Positions 3,001 through 44,795 of a DNA stretch of 64,000 bases are shown here, in pieces. Made by a program: the position numbers and the translations under genes. The first letter of the stretch is position 1; every line of letters starts with the position of its first letter. Under the pieces are notes generated by a model, which was not told the origin of the DNA, made no database searches, and saw only the letters and a program-made list of their open reading frames with translations. Origin of the DNA: a virus; IMG/VR virus record IMGVR_UViG_3300042691_005581, positions 1-64,000 of that record; one strand, given 5' to 3'.

Positions 3001-6000
3001 AAAAGAAAATGATAGACAGTTTATTGGGACGCGATTCTCTAGGAAATGTAGTTCCTGATCCTAATCTTTCAGATCGATTAAAATATGGAATTGAGATTAG
3101 ACCGCGTCAGTCTATGTTTAAAAATAGAATAGCGGCCTTGCGAAATTTCATTGAATTTACAAATAATGTTTTTAAAGAAAATTTAATTATTGATTATTTC
3201 AGTTTAAAAACGTTAAACTCTAAGGAAGAAATTCCTAATATTACATTAGCAGAATACGATATTGTAGTAGACGACTTAGACCAATTAAACGAATTGGTTA
3301 CAACTTTTAAAAAGACTGCTCAGCTCGATTGTGAAATAACAGCTGGTAAGATTTCTAACGTAATAATTTTAGATTCTGGATTTGGTTATGGCAAGTTGGA
3401 ACCTAAACAGTACAATGCAGACGGTGAAGTTATTACATGGAGAGGCCCAAAAGTTGAAATACTTGGTGAGTCTAATACTGGATTAATTGAAACAGAAATT
3501 AACAACACAGGTGAAATAATTGCCGCTAATATAGTAGACGGGGGCAATAGTTATATTACTGTTCCTGAACTAACAGTTAGACCCTACTCTGTTCTGGTTA
3601 AATCAGATATAGAATCTAGAGGTCTTTGGTCTAAATATATATTAGTAGAAAATGAATTTATTAAGGTCCAAACACAGAGTTATAATACTTCCTTGTATTG
3701 GGATGTAGTAGATTGGGTATCACCTGAGTATAATCAATTTAGAAAAATAACAGCTACATATGAGCTGCCGTATGAAATATCTGAACTAGAACTTTCACCG
3801 GGCGACTATGTAAAAATTAATAATAATGGTCGCGGCCGATTCTTAATTTTAAAGAAATTAGCTCCTGGAGAAGTGGGCAAGTTTAACGAAAACTTTGATA
3901 TTGTTTATAGCGAAAAGGGCACTATTAAGATAAAGGACACTATTTGGAAGATTGATCAATCGCAGTTTGGATGGGATCAAACAGCACCGTATGACAACAC
4001 TTTCTGGGACCAAACACCGGATGTTGAAATTTCTAAAATTATTGAAGCACTGAAGAATGATATATTTGTTGGCAATCTAAAAATCTATTGGAACAAAACA
4101 TTTTTTGCCTGTGTAAAATATGCATTGACTGAACAAAAATTTGTTGATTGGGCATTTAAGACTAGTTTTATTTCTGTAGAAAATAAAGCAGGAGGATTAA
4201 CTCAACGTCCTGTTTACAAATTTCAAGATACACAATGGTATGAATCTTACTTAAAAGAGATAAAACCTTATCATACAAACATAAGAAATTATGTATTAAA
4301 TTACACAGTAGACGAACCTACTAGAACATTTACAACTGATTTTGATTTACCAGCAGTATATAACAGCACAACTGACTCATACGATCCGTTGACAGAGACT
4401 AATCCGTTAGTACTTCAATATCCTTATAGAGGATGGTATGACAATAGAAAATTATTTGTTGAAAAAATAGTCATTGATCATCCTGGATTAGAATATGTAG
4501 AACAGCCTATAGTTCAAATTATTGCAGCACCTGAAGATACAATTGTTCGTCCTGCAACGGCCGTTGCCTATGTATCTGCAGGCGGAATATATGCAGTTGA
4601 AGTAACTGATCCTGGTGAAGGTTATTCTGTAAACCCAACAGTAATTTTAACTGGCGGAGTATCAGAATCTGGCACACCTGCCAAACTTACCGCTCATATG
4701 TCTAATAAAAAAGTTAGGTCCAATCTTGTTGGAATTAAATTTGATAGAATTTCTTCTTCAAAAGAAATTGGAAATATGACAGCAACTGATACATTTGTCT
4801 CGTCTGGAGCAGTAACTGAATTTGAACTTTCGTGGCCTGCTAACCCTGATAAGAATGATGTCGACTTAACCATTGCTGGTATTAGTGTACCGTTTTCTGA
4901 CTATGATTTAGAAGACTTTGTCAAGGGCGAAGAGTATAAAAAAACATATACGAAATTAATTTTAAGAAATTCTCCAGCTGCTGATGTTATTATAAAAATA
5001 ACTTATAAAAAGAGTTTTGATATATACTCAGCATATGATAGAATTGAAGATTATTTTTCAACAGTACCTAAAGACTCTCCAGGAAAAAATAATCAAGAAA
5101 ATCATGCTCAATTGATGACAGGAATGGAATATCCTGGTACAACAATTTTAACAGAACCATTACAATCAAATTATACTTGGGATGCTGTGCCGTTTGATTC
5201 TATTTCTTGGAACAAATTGAACTTTGGCATTGACGATTTAGATGCATTGATTGATGGTGGAAATTTAACAACAGCAACAACTGGTCGATTTGCTACAGCG
5301 GCTGGAATAGATCCGGCAGATATTATTTTAGATGGCGACACATTTATATCTCCGTATAGAAGTTACGGCCCGGAAGAATTAGTACCCGGTGAAGTAAAAG
5401 AAACTTTGGGTATCAGCGTATTTGCTAGAGAATCTTCTGGCAGTCCTATGATATATACTCAATTTTCTAAAGCAGTTGCTGGAATAGAAACTACAATTCC
5501 TTTGAAAATTACTCCACCGTCGGTAGGATCTGTTCGACTAACATATAATCAAACAGTGTTAAAAGGTGTCACAGGGGACGAGTACTTAATTGCTGACAAT
5601 GTTTACAGAATAGATTTTGACGAAAAAACAATTTATGTAAAAGCACAAACTGCCGACGGTGACATTGCAGTTACATATATGGATGTGGGCGGCAGTAATT
5701 TTATTAGTATGAATCATTCATATAGTGAAGGATCTACTACCGCTGCGGTATTAGGTGATTGCCAACTTGATCAAGTTGGTAGTGTTTATGTTACTCTTGA
5801 TGGTAAAAGAGTTACAGCAACTGTAAGCACCAATACCTTCTATTACCAGTTAACTGAATCAGTTCCTGGTGTTGATAGACGTGCAAAAGTAACAATTTAT
5901 GGGTTAGGTGTAACAGGTAAGAAGACACTAACTGCGGCATTTTTTGTAGCTGCTTATAAAGGATTTAGTGAAGTTTATGAACAACTGCTTGATAATGTAT

Positions 6001-15373: not shown

Positions 15374-16579
15374 ATGCCATATACAATATATAAAACAAAC
15401 GGTGTGCGATTAACTACTATTGAAGATGGTAAATTAAATTTAGCAACCGATTTACAATTAGTAGGTAAAAACTATGCTGGATATGGACAGATAGTAAATG
15501 ATAACTTAGTTAAGTTGTTAGAAAATTTTGCTAATGGAACTGCACCCTCAAAGGCATTGACTGGTCAAATATGGTATGATACTCTTAACAAAAAATTAAA
15601 AGTTTATAACGGATCTAAATGGAGTCAAGTTTTACCTACCACTATTTCGGCAATTCGTCCAGTTGATTTATCTGATAATGAATTTTGGTTTGATTCTGTA
15701 AACTTTAAATTATATTTAAAACATGGTGATACTTTTAGATTAATAGGTCCTAGCACTACAACGTCTGGCCCAGGCTCGGGATCTACACTAACTACTACAG
15801 AAGTAGTATCTAGCACAGAAGTTACTTACGACATTATTAAATTAGTAATTGGTGAAGCAACAGTTGCAATTATTTCTGATCAAACTTTTGATGTTAAAAC
15901 AACTGATCCTACTTATGCAGAAACTACTAAAATAGTTAAGGGGATAACGTTAATAGGAGCAGATCCGTTAACTGGAGTTTCTTCAGACAGCGAATCATTT
16001 TTTTGGGGAACTGCTGCCGATTCTGAAAAGTTAGCCGGGCGCCCCTCTACTGATTTTTTATTAGCTTCTGCAATTAACGATATTGCAAGTGAGATCACTC
16101 AACTAACTGATATTACATTTATAAGTTCGGGATCACCTTCTACACCTGGCATTATTGAAGGTGCTTGGTCATTAAGTTCTGGATCTACATTAAACGCAAC
16201 CTATGCCGACTTGGCAGAAAGATACGAAGCAGATGCAGTATACGAACCTGGCACTGTTTTGGTATTAGGTGGCAATAAGGAAGTAACAATTAGTCAATCT
16301 TTAGGTGATACTGCTGTTGCTGGAGTTGTTAGCACTGCACCTGCATTCAAACTGAATTCTTCTGCAGGCAATGACGAAACGCATCCCTATATTGCATTGA
16401 CTGGTAGAATACCTTGTAAGGTAATCGGCGAAATTAAAAAGGGAGACCTGCTTATTACCAGTAATACTCCGGGAGTTGCTACATCAGGTAAGAAGCAGGC
16501 TGATCCAAACTCTGTAATTGGAAGAGCAATGCAAGATTACTCATCCAATGAAATTGGACTAATAGAAATTAAAGTTTAA
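15374..16579 (+). CDS. Tail fibre paralogue 4 with autoproteolysis-like C-terminal domain
   Basis: 401 aa. The shared N-terminal module is present (LVGKNYAGYG, VKLLENFANG, GQIWYDT). The C-terminal 140 residues, from YADLAERYEADAVYEPG through GDLLITSNTPGVA, resemble the IMC/peptidase-G2-type autoproteolytic chaperone domain seen at the end of many phage fibres. The ATG follows TTGGGGAAC. Its TAA overlaps the stop codon of the convergent thyA gene. Confidence 0.65.
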   Translation: MPYTIYKTNGVRLTTIEDGKLNLATDLQLVGKNYAGYGQIVNDNLVKLLENFANGTAPSKALTGQIWYDTLNKKLKVYNGSKWSQVLPTTISAIRPVDLSDNEFWFDSVNFKLYLKHGDTFRLIGPSTTTSGPGSGSTLTTTEVVSSTEVTYDIIKLVIGEATVAIISDQTFDVKTTDPTYAETTKIVKGITLIGADPLTGVSSDSESFFWGTAADSEKLAGRPSTDFLLASAINDIASEITQLTDITFISSGSPSTPGIIEGAWSLSSGSTLNATYADLAERYEADAVYEPGTVLVLGGNKEVTISQSLGDTAVAGVVSTAPAFKLNSSAGNDETHPYIALTGRIPCKVIGEIKKGDLLITSNTPGVATSGKKQADPNSVIGRAMQDYSSNEIGLIEIKV

Positions 16580-17460
16580 ACAGCCATGTCTGCCTTAATT
16601 GGCTCGTGACTTTGATAATTTTCTAATGTAATATCGGACATTTCGAAGTGTGTGATAACATCGATATCGTCAGTTAATTTAAGTTCGGCCAACGGCAAGG
16701 GCTTTCTAGATAGTTGCTCTTTTACTTGCTCTACGTGATTTTCGTAGATGTGCGCATCTCCAACAGCAATAATTAATTCACCAACTTCTAAATTGCATAC
16801 TTGTGCAACCATATGAGTGAATAATGCATAAGATGCAATATTAAAAGGCATGCCAAGAAACATATCTGCACTACGCTGATACATTTGGCAACTTAGTTTA
16901 CCGTTGCTAACATAAAATTGAGCCATCATATGACAGGGCGGCAAAGCCATCATGTCTAGTTCTCCGGGATTCCATGCTGAAATAATATGTCTTCGGCTGT
17001 AAGGATCTTCCTTAATTCCGTTAATTAATTCAATCAACTGATCGTGATTTTGTAATACAACTTTGTTAATACGTACCAAAGGTTTACGCCATTTGCGCCA
17101 TTGAACTCCATAAATTCTACCTAGATCGCCGGCGTGTCGCTGAAGTCGTTTTTCTACCCAATAAGGTGCAGTTGCATTGTCTGACCAAATTGTTTTCTTG
17201 TCAGTGTAACGTTCACCGTGTAAAATTTCTCTCAAACGATTCTCATCACCACTGCCTTCGATGAACCAAAGTAATTCAGATACTACTGCCTTCCATGCGA
17301 GTTTTTTAGTAGTAACGGCCGGAAATCCAGCCGCTAAATCAAAACGCATTTGCACTCCAAATTTACTGATAGTTCCTACACCTGTACGATCTGGCCGGTG
17401 CTCTCCGGATTCTAAAATATCTTTTAGTGCATTTAGATAAGCGTGTTCTGGATGTTTCAT
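16576..17460 (-). CDS. thyA: Thymidylate synthase
   Basis: 294 aa, a standard ThyA length. It methylates dUMP to dTMP with methylene-tetrahydrofolate. Visible signatures: the nucleotide-binding Arg in HRPDRTGVGT, KAVVSELLWFI, the catalytic Cys176 in LPPCHMMAQF, then SADMFLGMPFNIASYA and GDAHIYENH. Its first codons overlap the DHFR stop (ATGA), so the two folate-cycle enzymes are translationally coupled. It supplies dTMP for phage replication. Confidence 0.96.
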   Translation of the reverse strand: MKHPEHAYLNALKDILESGEHRPDRTGVGTISKFGVQMRFDLAAGFPAVTTKKLAWKAVVSELLWFIEGSGDENRLREILHGERYTDKKTIWSDNATAPYWVEKRLQRHAGDLGRIYGVQWRKWRKPLVRINKVVLQNHDQLIELINGIKEDPYSRRHIISAWNPGELDMMALPPCHMMAQFYVSNGKLSCQMYQRSADMFLGMPFNIASYALFTHMVAQVCNLEVGELIIAVGDAHIYENHVEQVKEQLSRKPLPLAELKLTDDIDVITHFEMSDITLENYQSHEPIKADMAV

Positions 17461-17933
17461 ATGTTATATTCTTTCATTGTATATCTTACTGGATCAGTAA
17501 CTGTAGCATGTTCTTTGACTTTTGTAAAGTTTTCTTTTACATAAGAAAGATCAAAAAACTTATCACACTCATAGTCGGCATCAATTTCTGTTACATAAAA
17601 TCTATCAATAATATCTAAGTATTGCTGATAAACGGCACTTCCGCCAATGATGAATATATCCTTATCGGGGTACTCTACTGAACAAAAATCTAATGCTTCT
17701 CCGCAGTCGCTAAACGTATGATCGCCTAATTCACGTTTTCTACTGATTACTACGTTGACACGATTGGGTAACGATTTACCTAAACTGTCATATGTAGTTG
17801 ATCCCATGATAACAACATTACCAGTAGTTAGTTGTCTAAACCATTGCATATCACCTTTAAGGTGAGGCCAGGGCATTTGACCATTAAATCCAATACCCTG
17901 ACTACGCTCTACTGCCACAATACAGTTGATCAT
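17457..17933 (-). CDS. folA: Dihydrofolate reductase
   Basis: 158 aa. It regenerates tetrahydrofolate from the dihydrofolate that ThyA makes. Signatures: IVAVERSQGIGFNGQMPW at the N-terminus (Met20-loop region), FRQLTTGNVVIMGSTTYDSLGK for cofactor binding, and IFIIGGSAVYQQYL. It lies in an overlapping operon with thyA downstream and the 197-aa hypothetical gene upstream. Confidence 0.95.
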   Translation of the reverse strand: MINCIVAVERSQGIGFNGQMPWPHLKGDMQWFRQLTTGNVVIMGSTTYDSLGKSLPNRVNVVISRKRELGDHTFSDCGEALDFCSVEYPDKDIFIIGGSAVYQQYLDIIDRFYVTEIDADYECDKFFDLSYVKENFTKVKEHATVTDPVRYTMKEYNI

Positions 17934-18523
17934 TCTGCAACGACTTTTTCTACTTTCTCTTTTTTCTTGGGAGGATCGATTTCGTCTGCTTTCTTTCGAA
18001 GTTGTTGAGCTTGCTTAAACAATGCATCAGCCTTACTTCTCAATTCTGCGGGACTTAGGTCTAGACTCTGACCAGTATCGTCTGTAATAACAATAGAGGA
18101 CTCTTCTTTAGCAACAGATTTCTTTTCTGCTTTTTTCTGAGCACCATCTGACACTGCAAGATCTTCTAGAGAAATTCCTTTTTGATCTGCAATGATTGCA
18201 TTTAGCTCGTCTAACGGAATTTGTGTTTGTGCATCCGGAGTCATCATCACCATACTTGTTTTTACTTTAATAAGGTGCTTGTTCGAGTGAAGATAACCTA
18301 ACATGTTAGATCCATCTGGAAATCTTCTAGCCGAAAGAATATCGGCTAATTCGTTTGCTTGTTGCCCGCTGTCGCCTTCGATTACATTCATCAACGTATC
18401 GTGATAACTGTCGCCGAGTCCGTGAGTTCCTACAACAAGACAACTAGTATGATCTCCAGGTAGTGTTCTGTACACTACTGCAACTCTTGCAGAGTTATTT
18501 TTCATTTTACCAACATGTTTCAT
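17930..18523 (-). CDS. Hypothetical phage protein with charged C-terminal tail
   Basis: 197 aa, family not recognised. The first 115 residues are a compact mixed domain (ARVAVVYRTLPGDHTSCLVVG, then residues that look like a helical cap). The C-terminus, from about residue 135, is Lys/Glu-rich with a predicted coiled helix (ELRSKADALFKQAQQLRKKA). AAGGAA precedes the ATG. It overlaps folA by 4 bases and is likely co-expressed with the nucleotide genes. Confidence 0.6.
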   Translation of the reverse strand: MKHVGKMKNNSARVAVVYRTLPGDHTSCLVVGTHGLGDSYHDTLMNVIEGDSGQQANELADILSARRFPDGSNMLGYLHSNKHLIKVKTSMVMMTPDAQTQIPLDELNAIIADQKGISLEDLAVSDGAQKKAEKKSVAKEESSIVITDDTGQSLDLSPAELRSKADALFKQAQQLRKKADEIDPPKKKEKVEKVVAE

Positions 18524-18540
18524 GTTATTTCCTTTTTAAT

Positions 18541-18750
18541 TTATTCTGTAGGTGCTTGTTCAGCCGGTGCCACAGCATTTAAAAATGCATCTAGACGATT
18601 GAACGTATTACCCACAGCGGCCATTTCACCGGCATTAAAAGCACCACGACGACTTGCGGCGTCAATAATAGCTCTAATATTTTGAAGATCTGTAATTGTA
18701 AGATCTGGGCCTTGCGGCTGTTGGGTTTCTTGAGTTTCTTGATTTTCCAT
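18541..18750 (-). CDS. Small hypothetical protein
   Basis: 69 aa. It has a Gln/Glu-rich start and one helical domain with the core LTITDLQNIRAIIDAASRR and AGEMAAVGNTFNRLDAFL. The sequence type recurs in aquatic T4-like phages, but no function is known to me. AAGGAGAT precedes the ATG. Soluble, acidic, no cysteines. Confidence 0.6.
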   Translation of the reverse strand: MENQETQETQQPQGPDLTITDLQNIRAIIDAASRRGAFNAGEMAAVGNTFNRLDAFLNAVAPAEQAPTE

Positions 18751-18759
18751 AATATCTCC

Positions 18760-37189: not shown

Positions 37190-37762
37190 TTATTTTATAC
37201 CTACTATCATGAAACGGTGATATTTTGTTTCAGGATCTTCCAATTGAACTGTATCTTTAAACAAAATTTCCGACATAGGAAAATCGTTTTCTAGATCGGA
37301 TAACTTTTCATGTGGTGTATTATTTGTTTCGTTTCTTGATTGTAACACAACAACAGTTCCTTTGGGGATGTTGTCCCACCAAGCAGAATCATCGATGTCC
37401 AATATACTGGTATTGATAACCATACTGTTTTGATCAATTTGTTGGTAATTTAACAAATTTACATCTTTTATCATGTGTTCTATAGGAATCTCAATGTTAG
37501 CATCGCTAACCATTTTCCTCCCTAATTCGACATGTTTTTTATTTTTGTCTACATTGATAATTTTATCAGCGGTTATGCCTAGCTTGCTTAATATAATAGA
37601 CATGTTACTGTACCAACTGCCTAAAATATATACAGTGCTGAAATTTGTCTTGTTAAGTTTTTTTAGAGTTTGAACAATCCAGATTTTACTATATAGTAGA
37701 TCGTCAGTTATACTGCCTTCTGGACTTACTGGACTGCTTTCTAACAGATCATTCACTTTCAT
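37190..37762 (-). CDS. SAM-methyltransferase-like protein with capsid-targeting-like N-terminus
   Basis: 190 aa. The N-terminus MKVNDLLE-SSP fits the T4 internal-protein targeting signal, with an LxE cleavage site at 6-8. After that comes a Rossmann-like region (VYILGSWYSNMSIILSKLG, then NVDKNKKHVELGRKM) as in class I methyltransferases, and VINTSILDIDDSAWWDNIP, where a catalytic site would sit. No clear GxGxG. Overlaps the next gene by 14 bases. Confidence 0.55.
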   Translation of the reverse strand: MKVNDLLESSPVSPEGSITDDLLYSKIWIVQTLKKLNKTNFSTVYILGSWYSNMSIILSKLGITADKIINVDKNKKHVELGRKMVSDANIEIPIEHMIKDVNLLNYQQIDQNSMVINTSILDIDDSAWWDNIPKGTVVVLQSRNETNNTPHEKLSDLENDFPMSEILFKDTVQLEDPETKYHRFMIVGIK

Positions 37763-38045
37763 GTTTGCGCTCTCCAGTAAGATAGGGCAAACTAAACCAT
37801 AGTTGGAACCATTCTGGTGTTCCCGGTCTTATGTTTTTCTCTCGCATTATTCTTGCATTTTCTGCTGCGGTGTGCGTTATATTGTTACCGACAGTTTCTT
37901 GAAGTTGGGGAGTATGACCTAGTCCCGCAAGATATTGCATTCTTGCTAATTCATATGCAGGATCGTTTGGCGGCAAAATACAATCATCATCTGAGGGTTT
38001 TATCAGATGGGATGCATTTATTTTAACTTGCCGCCATTCGCTCAT
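37749..38045 (-). CDS. Small hypothetical head-region protein
   Basis: 98 aa. Ends with PGTPEWFQLWFSLPYL, a PG(T/S)xEWF element also seen in the 291-aa protein at 43432 (PGSREWFRQMM), so the two probably share a short binding motif. Helical middle (YELARMQYLAGLG). Overlaps both neighbours slightly; likely head-associated by context. Confidence 0.5.
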   Translation of the reverse strand: MSEWRQVKINASHLIKPSDDDCILPPNDPAYELARMQYLAGLGHTPQLQETVGNNITHTAAENARIMREKNIRPGTPEWFQLWFSLPYLTGERKHESE

Positions 38046-38902
38046 TTCTTAAGAGTTTCGTTTAGCATTGTCTGCAATCTTAACTCGTACCAGTTAGATT
38101 CCATAGGCACACACTTATCTTTATAAGTACCATCGGCTTTCTTTACCTTACCGGCATAACGCTTACCTTTCCAACAAGCCTTTCCGTCCACACCTTTAAC
38201 TTTTTCTTCTGCCACACCTTGCTCTTTGTTTGATGTTGATTTCTTGACAGGGCCAAAACCATGTAAACGATTGTCAGCTTTAACTGCGCCACGAGCACGA
38301 TTTGCAATTTTTGGAGTAGTTGGTGCGTTATAGTTAGTTGCTCCAGGACTTGCTTGTACTTGGGCTCGTGCTTTATTTTTATATGAAGTTAATGTTGCCG
38401 GAGACAATTCGTTAACCTGTTTGGAGCTTTCTGACAAACTATCTTCTTCACTTTGCATATAATCCCAAACTGTAACTAACATGCTTTTAGCAACTGCAAT
38501 TTTTTCTTGACACCATTCAGGCAAATTATCGCCGGCATTGATTAATTCATCTAATCCTACTACTGCACGATGTAGAGTTTCTAAATTGTTGTCAGCCATG
38601 CCTGCTTCGTCGTTGTATTCTGCATCGTCGACGTTTTCATTTTTTTTATTGTTTGCTAATGCATTAGCTGCTATACCTCCAACAACTGCTCTACCTACTG
38701 CTCCGGCAATGGGAGCCAGTGCTGCAAATTCTGCAAGCTCTTTATTTTTATGTTTTTGCCCACGAACTTGATCAGCTGATCTCTTTTTATCCTTATGCTC
38801 GCCAGATCCTGATCCTACAGTTTGGTGAGCCTTGGCTACTGGATTTTTTGTTTTAAGAGTGTATTTTACAGCTTTTACACCTTTTTTATGTTCGTTGATC
38901 AT
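38042..38902 (-). CDS. Basic internal-head or scaffold-type protein
   Basis: 286 aa, Lys-rich ends with a central acidic section. Phage head-type short motifs are visible: GDNLPEWCQEKIAVAKSML, VNELSPATLTSYKNKARAQ and GKACWKGKRYAGKVKKADG, each familiar as a modular block in aquatic T4-like phage proteins. A hydrophobic stretch (LAPIAGAVGRAVVGGIAANAL) at about 60-85 could be a membrane or hinge segment. No enzyme motif. Likely packaged or processed with the head. Confidence 0.5.
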   Translation of the reverse strand: MINEHKKGVKAVKYTLKTKNPVAKAHQTVGSGSGEHKDKKRSADQVRGQKHKNKELAEFAALAPIAGAVGRAVVGGIAANALANNKKNENVDDAEYNDEAGMADNNLETLHRAVVGLDELINAGDNLPEWCQEKIAVAKSMLVTVWDYMQSEEDSLSESSKQVNELSPATLTSYKNKARAQVQASPGATNYNAPTTPKIANRARGAVKADNRLHGFGPVKKSTSNKEQGVAEEKVKGVDGKACWKGKRYAGKVKKADGTYKDKCVPMESNWYELRLQTMLNETLKK

Positions 38903-38912
38903 TTTAAATTCC

Positions 38913-39323
38913 TTAGACTATTAGATTATCTGAATTTCCTGGAGCCGATGCTACGGAACCAGAACCTGATGATCCGCCGCTTGCGCTTTCTTGAGATTTA
39001 GGTTGCCAAAATTTTCCTCGACCAAAGAACATATTTGCACGTTGATTTTCGAATGGACTATACCACTTGCCGCTTTTAGTTCTGAACAGTCCTGCTTTTT
39101 CAGCATCAGCTTCTTTCCCTGGCTGCACGTTGTAAAAATACACTCCATTGGCTGGTACTGATTTAAACTTTTTTTCAAAATTGGGTTGATCTTCGTGACC
39201 TAACTCGTGCTCCATTTCTCGACGTTTAAAATCACGTTTATTGGCGTCCATTTGATCCTGTTGATTACGTTCGTAATCTAAGGGGTTGTATCGATTTTCG
39301 CCTAATAGATCTATTATTTTCAT
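38913..39323 (-). CDS. Head-region protein with capsid-targeting-like N-terminus
   Basis: 136 aa. Starts MKIIDLLGE-NRY, the LxE cleavage pattern of T4 internal proteins. The mature part is Gln/Asp/Lys/Phe-rich (ERNQQDQMDANKRDFKR), with a folded middle (VYFYNVQPGKEADAEKAGL). The C-terminus is a Ser/Gly-rich linker. Function unknown; predicted virion-internal. Confidence 0.55.
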   Translation of the reverse strand: MKIIDLLGENRYNPLDYERNQQDQMDANKRDFKRREMEHELGHEDQPNFEKKFKSVPANGVYFYNVQPGKEADAEKAGLFRTKSGKWYSPFENQRANMFFGRGKFWQPKSQESASGGSSGSGSVASAPGNSDNLIV

Positions 39324-39688
39324 TTCTTTTTCATCCAGTTTGCAACAGGGCTTGTTGTATTTGTGCTCTTTAACTCTTGACTGTTTGAGTCGCCATGATT
39401 TAAATCTTGATAATTTGCACCTGCAACCTTATATGCAATTTTTAACATGTCTTCTTCTGCTTTACTATACGGTGCTGCTAATTTAGATTTTCCTATCCAG
39501 CTTTCAGTGTCCATGTCTGGTACTATTTCCCCGTCAGTGCCTGCAACTGCAAGTCCTAATCTATATAGTGTATAATCACCGTTCCATCGATCTGCATCTG
39601 AAAATTTGTGCAGGCCGCGAGTTGGCTGCTGTTGGCGACTAGTAAGTGTGCCCTTCTTGCCTTCATCGATGAATTCTTTTGCTCTCAT
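39320..39688 (-). CDS. Head-region protein with capsid-targeting-like N-terminus
   Basis: 122 aa. Starts MRAKEFIDE-GKK (IxE). Then a basic segment rich in Gln and Arg (TSRQQQPTRGLHKF) and a domain of about 75 residues with YRLGLAVAGTDG and LAAPYSKAEEDMLKIAYK. Ends in a Lys tail. No known fold; predicted packaged protein. Confidence 0.55.
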   Translation of the reverse strand: MRAKEFIDEGKKGTLTSRQQQPTRGLHKFSDADRWNGDYTLYRLGLAVAGTDGEIVPDMDTESWIGKSKLAAPYSKAEEDMLKIAYKVAGANYQDLNHGDSNSQELKSTNTTSPVANWMKKK

Positions 39689-40140
39689 TATACGCCCTTA
39701 CTGCTGGCTTTTAACATCCATCCATGCTTTCGATGTGCATCAATTCTGCTGGCTAGAAAATCGCTAAAACCTGCTTCCTTATATTTTTCAGATAATTCAA
39801 AGATAAGTTTGTAAATGTTAACTAGTTTTTCATTGTCTTCGATTAATTCCGCTAGCATTCTTTCTTTTGGTGCTACTTCGACTGCATCGTCAATTTGGCT
39901 CAACATGTTAAATCGTGAAAGACTACCCGGAACATATGTATCTAATGCTCTAATTTGTTCAGCATATACGTCGATACTTTCAAATACTTCTTCGTAGATG
40001 CCGCCGAATAAATCGTGATACTGCTTAAAATCACTGCCTTCTACGTTCCAGTGAAAGTAATGCGCCTTTAAGTAAAAACTAAAAGAACTAGCGAATCCTA
40101 CTTTAGCAGCTTGTTTTAAATCTTCCATTTTATAATCCAA
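39688..40140 (-). CDS. dps: Dps-like ferritin-fold protein
   Basis: 150 aa, a typical Dps length. The ferroxidase block HYFHWNVEGSDFKQYHDLF carries His30 and His42, then IDVYAEQIRAL carries Asp57 and Glu61. The ligand equivalent to E. coli Asp67 is Gly46, so iron binding may be weakened. Dps coats and protects DNA in starved or stressed bacteria. No capsid-targeting motif at its start. Sits inside the predicted injected-protein cassette. Confidence 0.75.
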   Translation of the reverse strand: MDYKMEDLKQAAKVGFASSFSFYLKAHYFHWNVEGSDFKQYHDLFGGIYEEVFESIDVYAEQIRALDTYVPGSLSRFNMLSQIDDAVEVAPKERMLAELIEDNEKLVNIYKLIFELSEKYKEAGFSDFLASRIDAHRKHGWMLKASSKGV

Positions 40141-40146
40141 TGTAGT

Positions 40147-42297
40147 TTATTTATTTTCTAAACGTTTAATAAGATTTTCCATTTGCGATTCTATAGATTC
40201 ATTTAATGGTAAAAATTTTGATTCGTTTAATGATACAATGGGTACTCTCTTAATCATAAACTTCTCAAGTAGATCAAAGTATTCATATCTTTTGTGTTCT
40301 GCAACAATTCTTTTATCCGGAGAAACTCCGCTAGATCGTTTAAACGCGGTTTTGTCTTTGTTGATCAATGCTTGTTTTAACTCTTTGTCATGTCTATAGT
40401 AAGGTGTTGCAACTTTTGTAACTTTATCAAAATTAAAATATCCGTGCTTACCGTCATGCCCGTTATTTTTAAGTATTTCTTTAAAAATGTGATCATGTCT
40501 TGTGCAAACTACTAGTTCTATATCTCCGTATTTCTTATAAGCCTTAACAGCCAACGCTAACCAATCATCTACTATTTCTAAATGTTCTTTTACCCTAGGC
40601 ATAGCAGTTTCAAGACATACTAATTTAACTTCGTGCGGTAGTGGATTCTTAGGATCTTTTTTGACTTTGTTAGTGCCAACCATCCAGTATTTTGTTTTTG
40701 CAGCAACTTTCCATCCATCTATACTGTCCTTATCAGGAGGATTGTATTTGTCGAATACAATAGATACTTTTGGATCTACACTTTCCGATATAGGCTGCAC
40801 TGCTGTTGGTAATCCAGGCTTAGGTGCAGAGTTAGTTTTTGCTGATGGTAAAAACTTTTTAATAGATTTTTTAGTTAATGGTCCGAGATAGCCATCGATG
40901 TCTAAATTAGCACCAAATTTATCGTTCAACATCTGTTGAATTTGTCGAACTATAGGATCGTTGGGTTTGTTGCGTTCTTCTACTTTATCGTGTATCTCAG
41001 GCTGTTCATGACCCCCACCGATCTCTTTATATCGCATTTTCAATCTATCTAATTTCTGCTTCAGCCCTATTAGTTCTTTCTTATCGTATGGAATTATTAC
41101 CATATCACTGTCACCTTGACCGTACTCATGTGGATCATCGGTGCCTAGTGTAGGATAATGCTGTCCTAACTTGTACCAATCTAAATCACCCGGGGTATCA
41201 ATGACTAATGAATTCTTAGGAGTTGTCAGTAGATCTTTCTGATATCCTTTTGGATCTGGCTCTACTGCTCTGCCTTCTGCTATCTTTTTTTCATCGTTAG
41301 CAAACTGCTTCTTAGTTGCCTTAATAATACCTGAAAATCGTTTATTACCTCGAGCATAGTCGCCTTCTGCATCTGCCTTCCTGGCATCGGCCCCTGCTGC
41401 TTTTTTATATCTTGCTAGTGTATCGTTAGACAACTCTGCAAGGTTAAATGCTTTTAGATTTTTTTCTACTTGTCCTGGTCGTACATCTTTAGTCAGGCTT
41501 GTGCTATAACGAGGATCCTTTGCTTGCTTTTTACTGGCAATAACACCAACACCGGCAGCCTCTTCACCTACGGCAGATTTCTTGCCTTTACTTGCAGGCA
41601 CAGCAGCCATACGTTGTTTAGCTTTAAGCATGAGGTCTTTAACTTCCTCATCACTTAAATTATCAGGCATATCTCTACGCCATACTGCAAATTGTTCTTC
41701 TTCACTCTTGCTAGGATCTAGCAACACTTGGCGCATCGGAGTAGCTCTAGGACCTTCTTGATATTCCGGCCCACCCTTTACACTGCTAGGTTCTGTTGTA
41801 TCTTGTCTAGAAATAATTTCTAAATCTGTTAATCCTGCTCGCTGATATGGAGGAACACCGGACTTATCAGGTCTAGTTAAAAAGCTAAAAGATGCCTTTT
41901 CTTGTTCTCCTACAATTAGGATAACCTTACTAAACCCTTCTCCAGCAATTTTAGCCAACACTTTATCTAATGTACTAGCATCTGGAGTGGCCACACTAAA
42001 CACTTCTGCATTTTGAGGAAATACCTTACGATATGTTGCTAGTTTTTCTTCGGGCGATAACGGATCATCTTTAGTCTTTGTAAATGTAGGTTTGTCGGTC
42101 CATGGTTGACCTGTTGCAGGATCTACAAGACTAGTCCTTGATACTACAAAAAACGGTTTAGCATTTTGTTGTTGTGCATGGTGTATGACAGCCTTAGCTA
42201 ATAACATATGACCTTTATGTCCCATCCCACGGCCCCATCCTAACACTGCGGTTTTACCGTTGACTGATATTTCTTCAAATAAATTCTTTAATAGCAT
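40147..42297 (-). CDS. Nucleotidylyltransferase with peptidoglycan-binding-like and C-terminal domains
   Basis: 716 aa from the ATG at 42297, which follows GAGGAAAG. It opens MLLKNLFEE-ISV, a capsid-targeting-like start. Residues about 15-200 form a cytidylyltransferase-like domain with WGRGMGHKGHMLLA (HxGH) and RATPMRQVL (the ISxTxxR element). A peptidoglycan-binding_1-like block lies near 500 (VRQIQQMLNDKFGANLDIDG). The C-terminal third is a separate alpha/beta domain without a known motif. Substrate unknown. Confidence 0.65.
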   Translation of the reverse strand: MLLKNLFEEISVNGKTAVLGWGRGMGHKGHMLLAKAVIHHAQQQNAKPFFVVSRTSLVDPATGQPWTDKPTFTKTKDDPLSPEEKLATYRKVFPQNAEVFSVATPDASTLDKVLAKIAGEGFSKVILIVGEQEKASFSFLTRPDKSGVPPYQRAGLTDLEIISRQDTTEPSSVKGGPEYQEGPRATPMRQVLLDPSKSEEEQFAVWRRDMPDNLSDEEVKDLMLKAKQRMAAVPASKGKKSAVGEEAAGVGVIASKKQAKDPRYSTSLTKDVRPGQVEKNLKAFNLAELSNDTLARYKKAAGADARKADAEGDYARGNKRFSGIIKATKKQFANDEKKIAEGRAVEPDPKGYQKDLLTTPKNSLVIDTPGDLDWYKLGQHYPTLGTDDPHEYGQGDSDMVIIPYDKKELIGLKQKLDRLKMRYKEIGGGHEQPEIHDKVEERNKPNDPIVRQIQQMLNDKFGANLDIDGYLGPLTKKSIKKFLPSAKTNSAPKPGLPTAVQPISESVDPKVSIVFDKYNPPDKDSIDGWKVAAKTKYWMVGTNKVKKDPKNPLPHEVKLVCLETAMPRVKEHLEIVDDWLALAVKAYKKYGDIELVVCTRHDHIFKEILKNNGHDGKHGYFNFDKVTKVATPYYRHDKELKQALINKDKTAFKRSSGVSPDKRIVAEHKRYEYFDLLEKFMIKRVPIVSLNESKFLPLNESIESQMENLIKRLENK

Positions 42298-42298
42298 G

Positions 42299-43435
42299 TT
42301 AGTCTTTCCTCGGTGCCCATGTTCCTTGATCAATTGCTTTTACAAATTGACCTGGCAAATCTTTCTTAAACTGCCCACCTGGATGTGCTTGCACATAACC
42401 TTCAGGTTTTGTTTGTCTAATACCACCGTGCGTTCCTGCACTTAATCGTTTAATCAGGTCACTCTTAGCTAAACTTAATTTTTCTACAGAAGTTAATATA
42501 GTGTCTAATGCAGGGTCGTTGATAATCTTAGCTGCTTGCCCGCTAGATAAATTTTGTGCTGCCCAATCTTTAAACTTTTCTTTAACTCCTGCAACTCTTA
42601 AGTTCTGATTAAAAAATTTGTAGAGAACATCGCCCGGCTTACTTAATCCTGGTTTAGGAGATAGAAAGTTATCAATTGCAGCAGCATTAGTTTCTATGTA
42701 TCCTTGTGCGTCGTCGATCAATCGATCATCGATTCCTGGTGCTTCACTTACGTGTGTAGTTCCCTGCACAATAACATCCGGAGTGCTGAGACTTTCAGCA
42801 TTAGGGTATCGACCTTCTTCACTACTGCCTAGTGTATCATAATAGCCTGTAACAGCTACCATTACTTTGGCCTTTGATATCTGTGTTCCTAATTCTGATT
42901 TTCTAGGTATGTGAAAACTAGTAATGTTTGGAGTGAAATCGTATTCACCTGTCTTTGGGTTTAATACTGCGGGTTTACTAGGATAAAATAATAATCCGCC
43001 TTCTACATATCCCTTACGAGGACTTACTTTTTCAAAATAGGGCCATAAATCCATCAGTTCCTGAGCATACGCTGTTCTTTGTGCAGCTTGCTCATCACTA
43101 CCTGGTTTACCTGTGCCTAAGATAAAGTTTTTAATATCTTCGGGACTATACATAACAGTCTTAACGCCGTTGTCTAATTCTGTTTTGCCTCGCTTGAGAT
43201 ATTCCCATGCATTCTTTGGAAACATACTGAATCGGCCCTGCTGATCTCGCCCCCAGTATACAACTGGACTTCCGTCCCATTTTAATTCAATAGTTCCGCC
43301 CTGTCCGGCCATACTTCGTAACCTCTCAGCGGCATGAACACCACCGTCACTACCATTAGTAAACACCAAGTCTTCGATATGCTGATACTTTCGACCTACT
43401 GCGGCTGCTTCTGATAATAGTTCACGTATTTTCAT
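42299..43435 (-). CDS. KxDG-motif protein (DUF6267-like) with capsid-targeting-like N-terminus
   Basis: 378 aa. Starts MKIRELLSE-AAA (LxE). Residues 49-60, TIELKWDGSPVVY, carry a KxDG element (Lys52) like motif I of covalent nucleotidyltransferases (ligases, capping enzymes), followed by GRDQQGRFSMFPKNAWE and YVEGGLLFYP. I recall similar phage proteins as DUF6267; ligase activity is inferred only from the motif. The middle (residues 200-250) is Ser/Pro-rich, the C-terminus helical. Confidence 0.6.
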   Translation of the reverse strand: MKIRELLSEAAAVGRKYQHIEDLVFTNGSDGGVHAAERLRSMAGQGGTIELKWDGSPVVYWGRDQQGRFSMFPKNAWEYLKRGKTELDNGVKTVMYSPEDIKNFILGTGKPGSDEQAAQRTAYAQELMDLWPYFEKVSPRKGYVEGGLLFYPSKPAVLNPKTGEYDFTPNITSFHIPRKSELGTQISKAKVMVAVTGYYDTLGSSEEGRYPNAESLSTPDVIVQGTTHVSEAPGIDDRLIDDAQGYIETNAAAIDNFLSPKPGLSKPGDVLYKFFNQNLRVAGVKEKFKDWAAQNLSSGQAAKIINDPALDTILTSVEKLSLAKSDLIKRLSAGTHGGIRQTKPEGYVQAHPGGQFKKDLPGQFVKAIDQGTWAPRKD

Positions 43436-44307
43436 TTAACTTGATCCATCATTTGTCTAAACCATTCACGTGAACCGGGTGTGTAACTTTCTTTTAGTCT
43501 ATACTGAGTTTTATATTTTACTAAACCGTCGTTGACTTTGGCAACAACATCATTGTACTTGTCGGGATGTGATTGTTTGAACTTAGCTAATATTGCATTG
43601 ATGTTGTCTAGATCAGATGCGCTTGCTTTACCGCCAAACAATGCTTTACTGATAGCATCTGGATCTTGCGGATTGCTATCCGGTATAACTGCTCCACCTG
43701 TACTTCTGCTTACCAATCCTGCTTTGTAACTCCACATCCAATCTGGATTGATAGCCTTTGCAATTTCAGTTTTTAGAATGTGTCTATACGCACCTTTGGC
43801 TCTTGCATCTTTAGGCATACCGGGTTCGTTTGGTTCTCCGCGCTTACTCCACTGAGTAAATTTGCCCTTACCTGGTTCCGCAATATCTAAATCAATTTGG
43901 AACCATTCTTCGCCGCCGGGTATTTGCACACATGCAGTTAGACCGTCACCGGATATTTTATAATATTTGTTAGGTTGCGATACAAATGATTTTTTAGGTA
44001 ACTCTTGATAACCTGCTTTTTGTAATTTTTGTGCTAGCCATGCACGTAATTGATTTTGTACTTCTTTGGGATCTTGTACTCTATTATCAACTTTGAGATA
44101 ATCAGTGGGATCCAATATAGTATCACCATCTCCAGTTTCTGCATTAGGATATATTGCAGATCCTGCAAGATGCTTCATAAGATCTATTCCTAATTCTCTG
44201 CCCAACGCTTGAACAGCAGATTGTACATCATCAGTAGATGCATTTTGTTTAGTAGCATTAGTACCATCTTGGTACTTAAATTCGTTGCCGCCTTCTAACA
44301 GTATCAT
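43432..44307 (-). CDS. Head-region protein, possible nucleotidyltransferase-like fold
   Basis: 291 aa. Opens MILLE-GGN, an LxE start. A segment LAGSAIYPNAETGDGDTIL with downstream IDLDIAEPG has the GS-(x)n-DxD then D layout of minimal nucleotidyltransferases, but this is weak. The C-terminus PGSREWFRQMM matches the PG(T/S)xEWF motif of the 98-aa protein at 37749. ATGA coupling at both ends. Confidence 0.5.
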   Translation of the reverse strand: MILLEGGNEFKYQDGTNATKQNASTDDVQSAVQALGRELGIDLMKHLAGSAIYPNAETGDGDTILDPTDYLKVDNRVQDPKEVQNQLRAWLAQKLQKAGYQELPKKSFVSQPNKYYKISGDGLTACVQIPGGEEWFQIDLDIAEPGKGKFTQWSKRGEPNEPGMPKDARAKGAYRHILKTEIAKAINPDWMWSYKAGLVSRSTGGAVIPDSNPQDPDAISKALFGGKASASDLDNINAILAKFKQSHPDKYNDVVAKVNDGLVKYKTQYRLKESYTPGSREWFRQMMDQVK

Positions 44308-44699
44308 ACCTTGTATTCCCCTACTTGATAGATGTTTTCTTGAAATTCTTCTATAAATTTGTCAGAAATTTGCTGGCACAGACCGTCTTTTAATTCTTGA
44401 TCAAATAACGATTTGGGATTATCTTTTAATTTTTCTTTTTTATGATATAAACTGCATCCTTTGGCTACCATAGGTGCCCACATTTTAGAAAATCTTTCTT
44501 TGTTAAAATCTGCAGATGTTATAGTATCTTTTAATTGCGCCACAAAAGGAAGAACAAATTCTTTGTGTAATGCATCATTGTCTAATATAAACCAAAATAC
44601 TTCGTCTGAAAGTTTTTGTTTATCAATATTAGACGTGCCTATTTTCTTAGGTTTGTTGTTTTTGTCTATAGGTACGTTAAAAAATTCAAATAGTTTCAT
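44304..44699 (-). CDS. Head-region hypothetical protein
   Basis: 131 aa. Starts MKLFEFFNVPIDK, a weaker capsid-targeting-like start with LFE at 3-5. Soluble and helical (FVLPFVAQLKDTITSADFN, CQQISDKFIEEFQENIYQ) with two cysteines. First full-size gene of the cassette in transcription order; overlaps the next gene by 4 bases. Confidence 0.5.
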   Translation of the reverse strand: MKLFEFFNVPIDKNNKPKKIGTSNIDKQKLSDEVFWFILDNDALHKEFVLPFVAQLKDTITSADFNKERFSKMWAPMVAKGCSLYHKKEKLKDNPKSLFDQELKDGLCQQISDKFIEEFQENIYQVGEYKV

Positions 44700-44714
44700 A
44701 GTATTACCAGGCGT

Positions 44715-44795
44715 TTATGACAAATATTTTGCCTTCAAATCCAATGTAACTCTGTAATAAATGTTTTTGTTATTCAACAGATCGTGGATCTTCAT
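44715..44795 (-). CDS. Putative 26-residue peptide gene with capsid-targeting-like start
   Basis: 26 aa. It begins MKIHDLLNN, strikingly like MKIRELLSE and MKIIDLLGE of the neighbours, then NIYYRVTLDLKAKYLS. No clear ribosome site. A hairpin and a CATAAATA box lie just upstream. It could be a small internal head peptide or a remnant of a lost cassette gene. Confidence 0.35.
   Translation of the reverse strand: MKIHDLLNNKNIYYRVTLDLKAKYLS

Follow-up and report, generated by a model that had tools for sequence, protein, structure and literature searches.

Leader-bearing proteins of a freshwater T4-like phage cassette are probable capsid cargo related to the T4 internal proteins

Several myoviruses package proteins in their heads and eject them, among them P1 with its Dar proteins and SPN3US and phiKZ with their ejection proteins; these are different phages with different propeptides, and the comparison with them is an analogy. 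A closer match is phage T4, in which the internal proteins IPI-IPIII and Alt carry a short N-terminal capsid targeting sequence (CTS) that is cut off by the prohead protease gp21. An Asp in place of the last leader Glu still permits targeting in T4 but prevents the cut. Cleavage by gp21 follows L/I-x-E, and targeting depends on residues 4 and 7 of the T4 leader, processing on residues 8 and 10 (PMC9026906). Here we describe a cassette in the window, bases 1-64000 of the 77,359-base virus record IMGVR_UViG_3300042691_005581, which is a fragment from a freshwater T4-like phage. Ten tightly packed genes run head to tail on the minus strand from 44699 to 37190 (Table 1), and most of their products begin with a short hydrophobic-acidic leader. 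An original prediction made from the sequence had read them as a toolkit packaged in the capsid and delivered with the genome, and the seven N-termini it quoted are all real open reading frame (ORF) starts in this one run, 37190-44699. Our analysis likewise makes it likely that the operon encodes T4-type prohead cargo that is targeted by the leader, cut, and delivered with the genome, and that includes repair-type enzymes.

Related loci (80 from a scan for gene 3, plus four longer records) were collected and their proteins clustered into families. The register of the leader residues matches that of the T4 CTS and gp24 propeptides: in the T4 record (NC_000866) IPII and IPIII begin with MKTYQEFIAE, gp24 begins with MAKINELLRE, and gp23 carries FLTE↓AE (arrows mark known or presumed cleavage positions). 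The gp24 propeptide is near-identical to the cassette leaders MKINELVQE and MKIRELLSE, although gp24 is a shell protein and no cassette protein is one by sequence. Like the T4 CTS, the cassette leader is a short N-terminal peptide ending in (L/I)xE, though usually one residue shorter; like the T4 internal proteins, the products are basic, diverse and encoded in a cluster, but they also include fused and multi-module proteins. In the gene 6 family a strict leader is present in 42/43 relatives, and across 21 distinct leaders Glu9 is invariant, residue 7 is I, L or V, and residue 8 is free. Cyanophage homologues of gene 4 show the same behavior, with F4, F7, L8 and E10 identical in 80/80 sequences and residue 9 varying more than any other among the first 18. 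The gene 2 family keeps [LI]xE↓GGN at 5 to ~18 residues from the start, and homologues of gene 1 begin MRIQDLLE↓G, MLIKELLE↓N and MLLKE↓FFG. The leader of gene 4 starts at an ATG at 42297, inside an ORF that as listed opens upstream at TTG 42333.

The leader is also separable from the domains that follow it. The original prediction called for the same leader on unrelated domains in related phages, and such cases were found; the leader is not tied to any one domain. Leaders conserved only together with their domains would have refuted the prediction, and this is not the pattern seen. The nucleotidyltransferase (gene 2), ligase-like (gene 3) and nucleotidylyltransferase (gene 4) families share it while their mature parts are unrelated, and in relatives it also occurs on dCMP-deaminase-like, endolysin-like (phrog_181, E 7.5e-41) and basic DUF6321 proteins. 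Genes 2 and 3 are fused in relatives G001 and G005, where gene 3's own leader is gone and the N-terminal leader alone is kept; in G001, likewise, gene 4 ends in a fused gene 6 domain that has lost its leader. The AlphaFold2 (AF2) model of gene 3 gives residues 1-13 a predicted local distance difference test (pLDDT) score below 50, and the fold begins at about residue 16, where alignments to PDB structures start. As a separate observation, the endolysin-like protein with the leader MRLRELLSEAK is encoded outside the cassette in two loci (L036, 189-1079; L063, 372-1253).

A protease of the expected type is encoded by relatives. Peptidase_S77 of the gp21 type was detected in G001, G004 and G005 (E ~1e-26 or better), in a gp20-gp21-gp22-gp23 module with the portal, scaffold and major capsid protein (MCP) genes. 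The suggestion that such a protease would be found outside the window thus holds for three relatives, but not for the 77-kb record itself. The MCP of the relatives contains YL(M/A)E↓S(P/A)TxGATSAGNVATLN, presumed to be its cleavage segment, and similar segments occur in cassette proteins (MKIKELLE↓TATAGATSAG, MRLWEILQE↓EATAGSTSAG, YVLE↓TATSGATSAG and VAE↓SATAGATSAA). A stricter form of the segment pattern, searched among 1786 proteins, occurred in cassette proteins and the capsid protein and nowhere else. Cassette copies of this MCP N-terminal segment (ATAGATSAGN) lie, for example, at L004 11883-12065, L063 10909-11148 and G004 65734-68226. In cyanophage S-SM1 a small gene annotated "major head protein", SSM1_197, comparably resembles that phage's own capsid protein (SADATGPNAGYDPVL versus SDTATGATAGFDPVL). 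Among cultured phages, the capsid proteins of G001 (16474-17646) and G004 (4159-5337) come closest, at 66-73% identity, to the ones from Rak2-like jumbo phages, PA5oct and Sinorhizobium phage Phosso, and not to cyanophage capsid proteins.

A homologue of one cassette protein has been found in virions. The cytidylyltransferase T4-GC190 was detected by mass spectrometry (MS) in purified S-SM1 virions (Sullivan et al., PMC3037559). It corresponds to GenBank SSM1_190, is matched by the hidden Markov model of the gene 4 family, and has a DUF6267 gene as its neighbor (E 2e-91), making the pair homologous to the neighboring genes 3 and 4. Its N-terminus, MKKFSAFLNE, matches T4 MKTYQEFIAE at the residues known to matter. 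The cyanophage gene upstream of DUF6267, in contrast, has no sequence similarity to gene 2. A literature search for capsid targeting with cyanophages returned a T4 review merely citing a cyanophage paper and nothing else. Given the T4 register, the LxE site with a free x, the independence from domains, the gp21-type protease, the shared MCP segment and the S-SM1 virion homologue, capsid targeting of the leader-bearing proteins is well supported.

The predicted cargo includes three conserved putative enzymes. Gene 2 has, in its AF2 model (pLDDT 74.7), the fold of family X DNA polymerases (Pol X) together with the GS motif and the Asp triad: Foldseek matched it to pol beta/mu (probability 1.00, E 5e-4), structure comparison (VIA) gave Z ~10 over ~180 residues with all 50 listed matches being Pol X, and G49, S50, D60, D62 and D139 are invariant in the family alignment. 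A profile search against PDB sequences gave nothing significant (best E 0.024), and the assignment depends on the predicted fold, as sequence searches alone would miss Pol X. Gene 3 is DUF6267 (Pfam PF19782, E 2e-16, 60.7 bits versus a cut-off of 27). It is the member for which a KxDG motif had been noted, and KWDG is indeed invariant in its alignment, with E145, E345-G346 and K366 conserved in the order of ligase motifs. In its AF2 model (pLDDT 86) nearly all of the PDB matches listed are RNA or DNA ligases, at Z <=5.8; a profile search against PDB sequences gave no match, and a literature search found no paper on DUF6267. Gene 4 bears out the nucleotidylyltransferase-like member that had been proposed, matching the PHROG 395 cytidyltransferase (E 5e-7). 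The Pol X and ligase repair pair of African swine fever virus offers a parallel, in that gene 2 resembles AsfvPolX (Z ~10) and gene 3 weakly resembles AsfvLIG; there is no sequence relationship, and the cassette belongs to a phage with a bacterial host. The conservation of this Pol-X-like, ligase-like and HxGH nucleotidylyltransferase cargo suggests that genes 2-4 form a set that repairs incoming nucleic acid or processes its ends.

We read the system as a variant of the T4 internal-protein system that is new in its cargo: compared with the small restriction inhibitors of T4, it adds Pol X-like, ligase-like and nucleotidylyltransferase folds, a deaminase and an endolysin. In the mechanism we propose, a helix-like N-terminal leader of 8-10 residues (hydrophobic-x-x-[EDNQ]-[LFI]-[LIV]-x-E) would dock each of the proteins to the scaffold core while the head is being assembled. 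We infer that a gp21-type prohead protease, once activated, would then remove the leader in the prohead by cutting after (L/I)xE, freeing the mature protein to lie among the DNA in the head, where the basic cassette proteins probably bind packaged DNA. The phage probably carries its own enzyme kit with its DNA, and this kit may be injected into the host. On infection the cargo would exit with the genome, and the products of genes 2-4 would repair or end-process the incoming nucleic acid ahead of phage gene expression.

Several observations weigh against this reading. Pfam Peptidase_S77 has no match in the 77-kb record, a fragment that also lacks the head genes. Virion detection is limited to one homologue, the cyanophage T4-GC190, from outside the clade of this phage, and the cytidylyltransferase was not detected in S-PM2 virions (PMC3037559). 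The gene 3 homologues of cyanophages DSL-LC02, S-SM1 and S-CAM9 lack a leader, while that of Pelagibacter phage HTVC008M has MYNDLLVE. Among the MS-listed proteins of CBB, a cultured relative, 6/36 have an LxE start, three of them gp22, MCP or core proteins, without clear enrichment; this check covered genes in bases 1-200,000, and tail proteins make up most of those detected. The cassette has no T4-type late promoter (TATAAATA) near it, the one match in the window being far off and the count below chance. In some leaders (MLLRELFVN, MKLLEFFNK) the usual position is not occupied by Glu, and gene 3's match to ligases is weak by itself (Foldseek best E 0.02, Z <6). The toolkit reading of the original prediction is supported in part. 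The predicted Dps is present as gene 5 (PF00210 ferritin, E 3e-15, 56.9 bits versus a cut-off of 24.5) but has no leader, although it was named as part of the kit. The methyltransferase-like member, gene 10, reached at best an NCBIfam E of 0.008, with 15.5 bits against a cut-off of 335.

The leader-bearing proteins could instead belong to the core or scaffold, like gp22, gp67 and gp68, being targeted and cut but then mostly degraded and expelled before packaging, so that little or nothing would be injected. We regard this as unlikely. Many cassette proteins of the relatives are long, basic and of low complexity with repeated (V/L/I)xE sites, and one cassette protein shares the LAG-type motif seen at the C-terminus of gp22; however, genes 2-4 keep catalytic motifs that would be needless in a disposable scaffold, and the S-SM1 virions in which the gene 4 homologue was detected were mature. 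Less probable still is a leader that serves as an interaction tag with no link to the capsid, for example for docking to replication machinery encoded nearby. The cassette adjoins the DNA polymerase gene, with clamp loader and Clp ATPase genes also near, the cyanophage homologues come after the gp41 helicase/primase and mazG genes, and the leaderless cyanophage gene 3 homologues would fit such a role. A docking tag, however, does not account for an LxE with free x in the register of the T4 CTS, for a site common to the capsid protein and cassette proteins, or for a leader-bearing homologue in virions.

The enrichment of leaders in the cassette bears on chance. Of the cassette genes, 8/10 have an [LI]xE site among the first residues of their product, compared with 11/75 of the remaining ORFs in the 77-kb record (Fisher p = 5e-5); the two cassette genes without a leader are the Dps gene and gene 9 (37749-38045), while the N-terminus of gene 8, MINE, also fits the pattern. 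Across the related loci and longer records, the leader core M-x(2-4)-[EDNQ]-[LFI]-[LIFVM] begins 267/605 cassette proteins and 54/1181 others, with 31 +/- 5 expected from shuffled N-termini; counted by family, the related loci give 25/78 and 20/355. That the leaders arise by chance or from misplaced start codons is very improbable: short hydrophobic-acidic N-termini are common and some [LI]xE close to the start is present in ~15% of the record's remaining genes, but in held-out families, with every family that has a member in the window record excluded, (L/I)xE starts occur in 21/59 cassette families versus 19/212 elsewhere (p 3e-6), and proteins retrieved solely by a DNA joint described below carry the leader core in 29/101 cases versus 52/1077 in the background (p 6e-13). 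Leader-bearing proteins outside the gene 1, 3 and 4 families have a median isoelectric point of 9.3, compared with 5.9 for the other genes of the record, as expected if they are located among packaged DNA.

If the leader-bearing proteins are indeed packaged, environmental T4-like phages would be using capsid cargo as a general strategy, one that extends beyond restriction inhibitors to repair-type enzymes. The leader would then provide a simple sequence rule to spot injected proteins among unannotated aquatic phage genes and a supply of new targeting peptides, and it would account for the cytidylyltransferase in cyanophage virions.

Table 1. Genes, leaders and joint of the cassette, in order of transcription (letters in brackets are working labels).
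Feature	Coordinates	Strand	Description
Gene 1	44304..44699	-	131 aa, MKLFE↓FFN...; no function assigned
Short N-terminus of gene 1	44685..44699	-	MKLFE
Gene 2 (F)	43432..44307	-	Leader MILLE↓GGN; predicted DNA-polymerase-X-like nucleotidyltransferase, GS...DxD...D invariant
Leader of gene 2	44293..44307	-	MILLE
Gene 3 (E)	42299..43435	-	Leader MKIRELLSE↓AAA; DUF6267, predicted ligase-like covalent nucleotidyltransferase, invariant K52-W-D54-G55
Leader of gene 3	43409..43435	-	MKIRELLSE; from sequence; pLDDT <50
Gene 4 (D)	40147..42297	-	Leader MLLKNLFEE; HxGH-type nucleotidylyltransferase (GWGRGMGHKGH) with long modular tail
Leader of gene 4	42271..42297	-	MLLKNLFEE
Gene 5, Dps/ferritin	39688..40140	-	Pfam PF00210; no leader
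Gene 6 (C)	39320..39688	-	Leader MRAKEFIDE↓G; basic, no function assigned
Leader of gene 6	39662..39688	-	MRAKEFIDE
Gene 7 (B)	38913..39323	-	Leader MKIIDLLGE↓N; basic, no function assigned
Leader of gene 7	39297..39323	-	MKIIDLLGE
Gene 8	38042..38902	-	MINE↓HKK...; basic string protein: HKDKK module, EQGVAE joint at residue 230, KACWKG module
Joint DNA in gene 8	38207..38218	-	GGTGTGGCAGAA, coding GVAE
Gene 9	37749..38045	-	No leader; ELARM..LAG and GTPEWF motifs common to other cassette/head proteins
Gene 10 (A)	37190..37762	-	Leader MKVNDLLE↓SS; possibly methyltransferase-like (weak)
Leader of gene 10	37739..37762	-	MKVNDLLE

Many cassette proteins of the relatives are strings of modules of ~40-160 residues, each ending in (E/K)(Q/E/K)GVAE, and modules are common to different cassette proteins. 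Cassette proteins contain 80 copies of GVAE in 173,000 residues, against three in 292,000 residues elsewhere; the window has one joint copy, in gene 8. About 20% of homology breaks fall within five residues of a joint, versus 5% for random points, a roughly fourfold excess that is possibly inflated by the shared joint itself. Conservation of the QGVAE joint extends to its DNA (AAGGTGTGGCGGAAG) and includes rare codons: GTG and GCG are used in 36/45 distinct joint sites, compared with background usages of 13% and 6% in these genes, while the joint flanks are random. A scan of viral contigs for the joint DNA found at least 120 stretches, and all 216 copies counted in the 80 loci kept from it are in frame; genes of the gp21 and gp23 types were both present in 3/14 joint-carrying records checked, most of which are fragments. 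We do not accept the joint as purely a protease site because of this codon constraint at the DNA level; it may serve for cleavage, for recombination, or for both. A tentative extension is that the cargo is built for recombination, as leader-tagged polyproteins of shuffled modules whose AAGGTGTGGCGGAAG-type joints (QGVAE, a VxE site) would be cut in the head by the prohead protease, so that newly exchanged modules would be set free as packaged proteins of their own. The DNA-conserved joint also raises a separate, testable question about the way in which phages reshuffle the modules of their proteins.

Joint-bearing stretches are very widespread in viral contigs, with examples at L013 11016-13643, L032 13349-15841 and in L197-L276. 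Large cassette proteins at L080 17531-19291 (equivalent to G001 104142-105902) carry internal leader-like copies (MRKFLQVVQEAELNQP, MRNLLQIVKEAEINQP) and are perhaps polyproteins. A tblastn search with gene 6 against annotated phages gave no match. In gene 9, a LARM/LARL..LAG-type motif resembles the C-terminus IRRLAGLKF of the gp22-like scaffold of G001 (17659-18756) and may be a core-binding peptide. Gene 9 and the C-terminus of gene 2 also share a G(S/T)xEWF motif, which has 94 matches in cassette proteins and two elsewhere.

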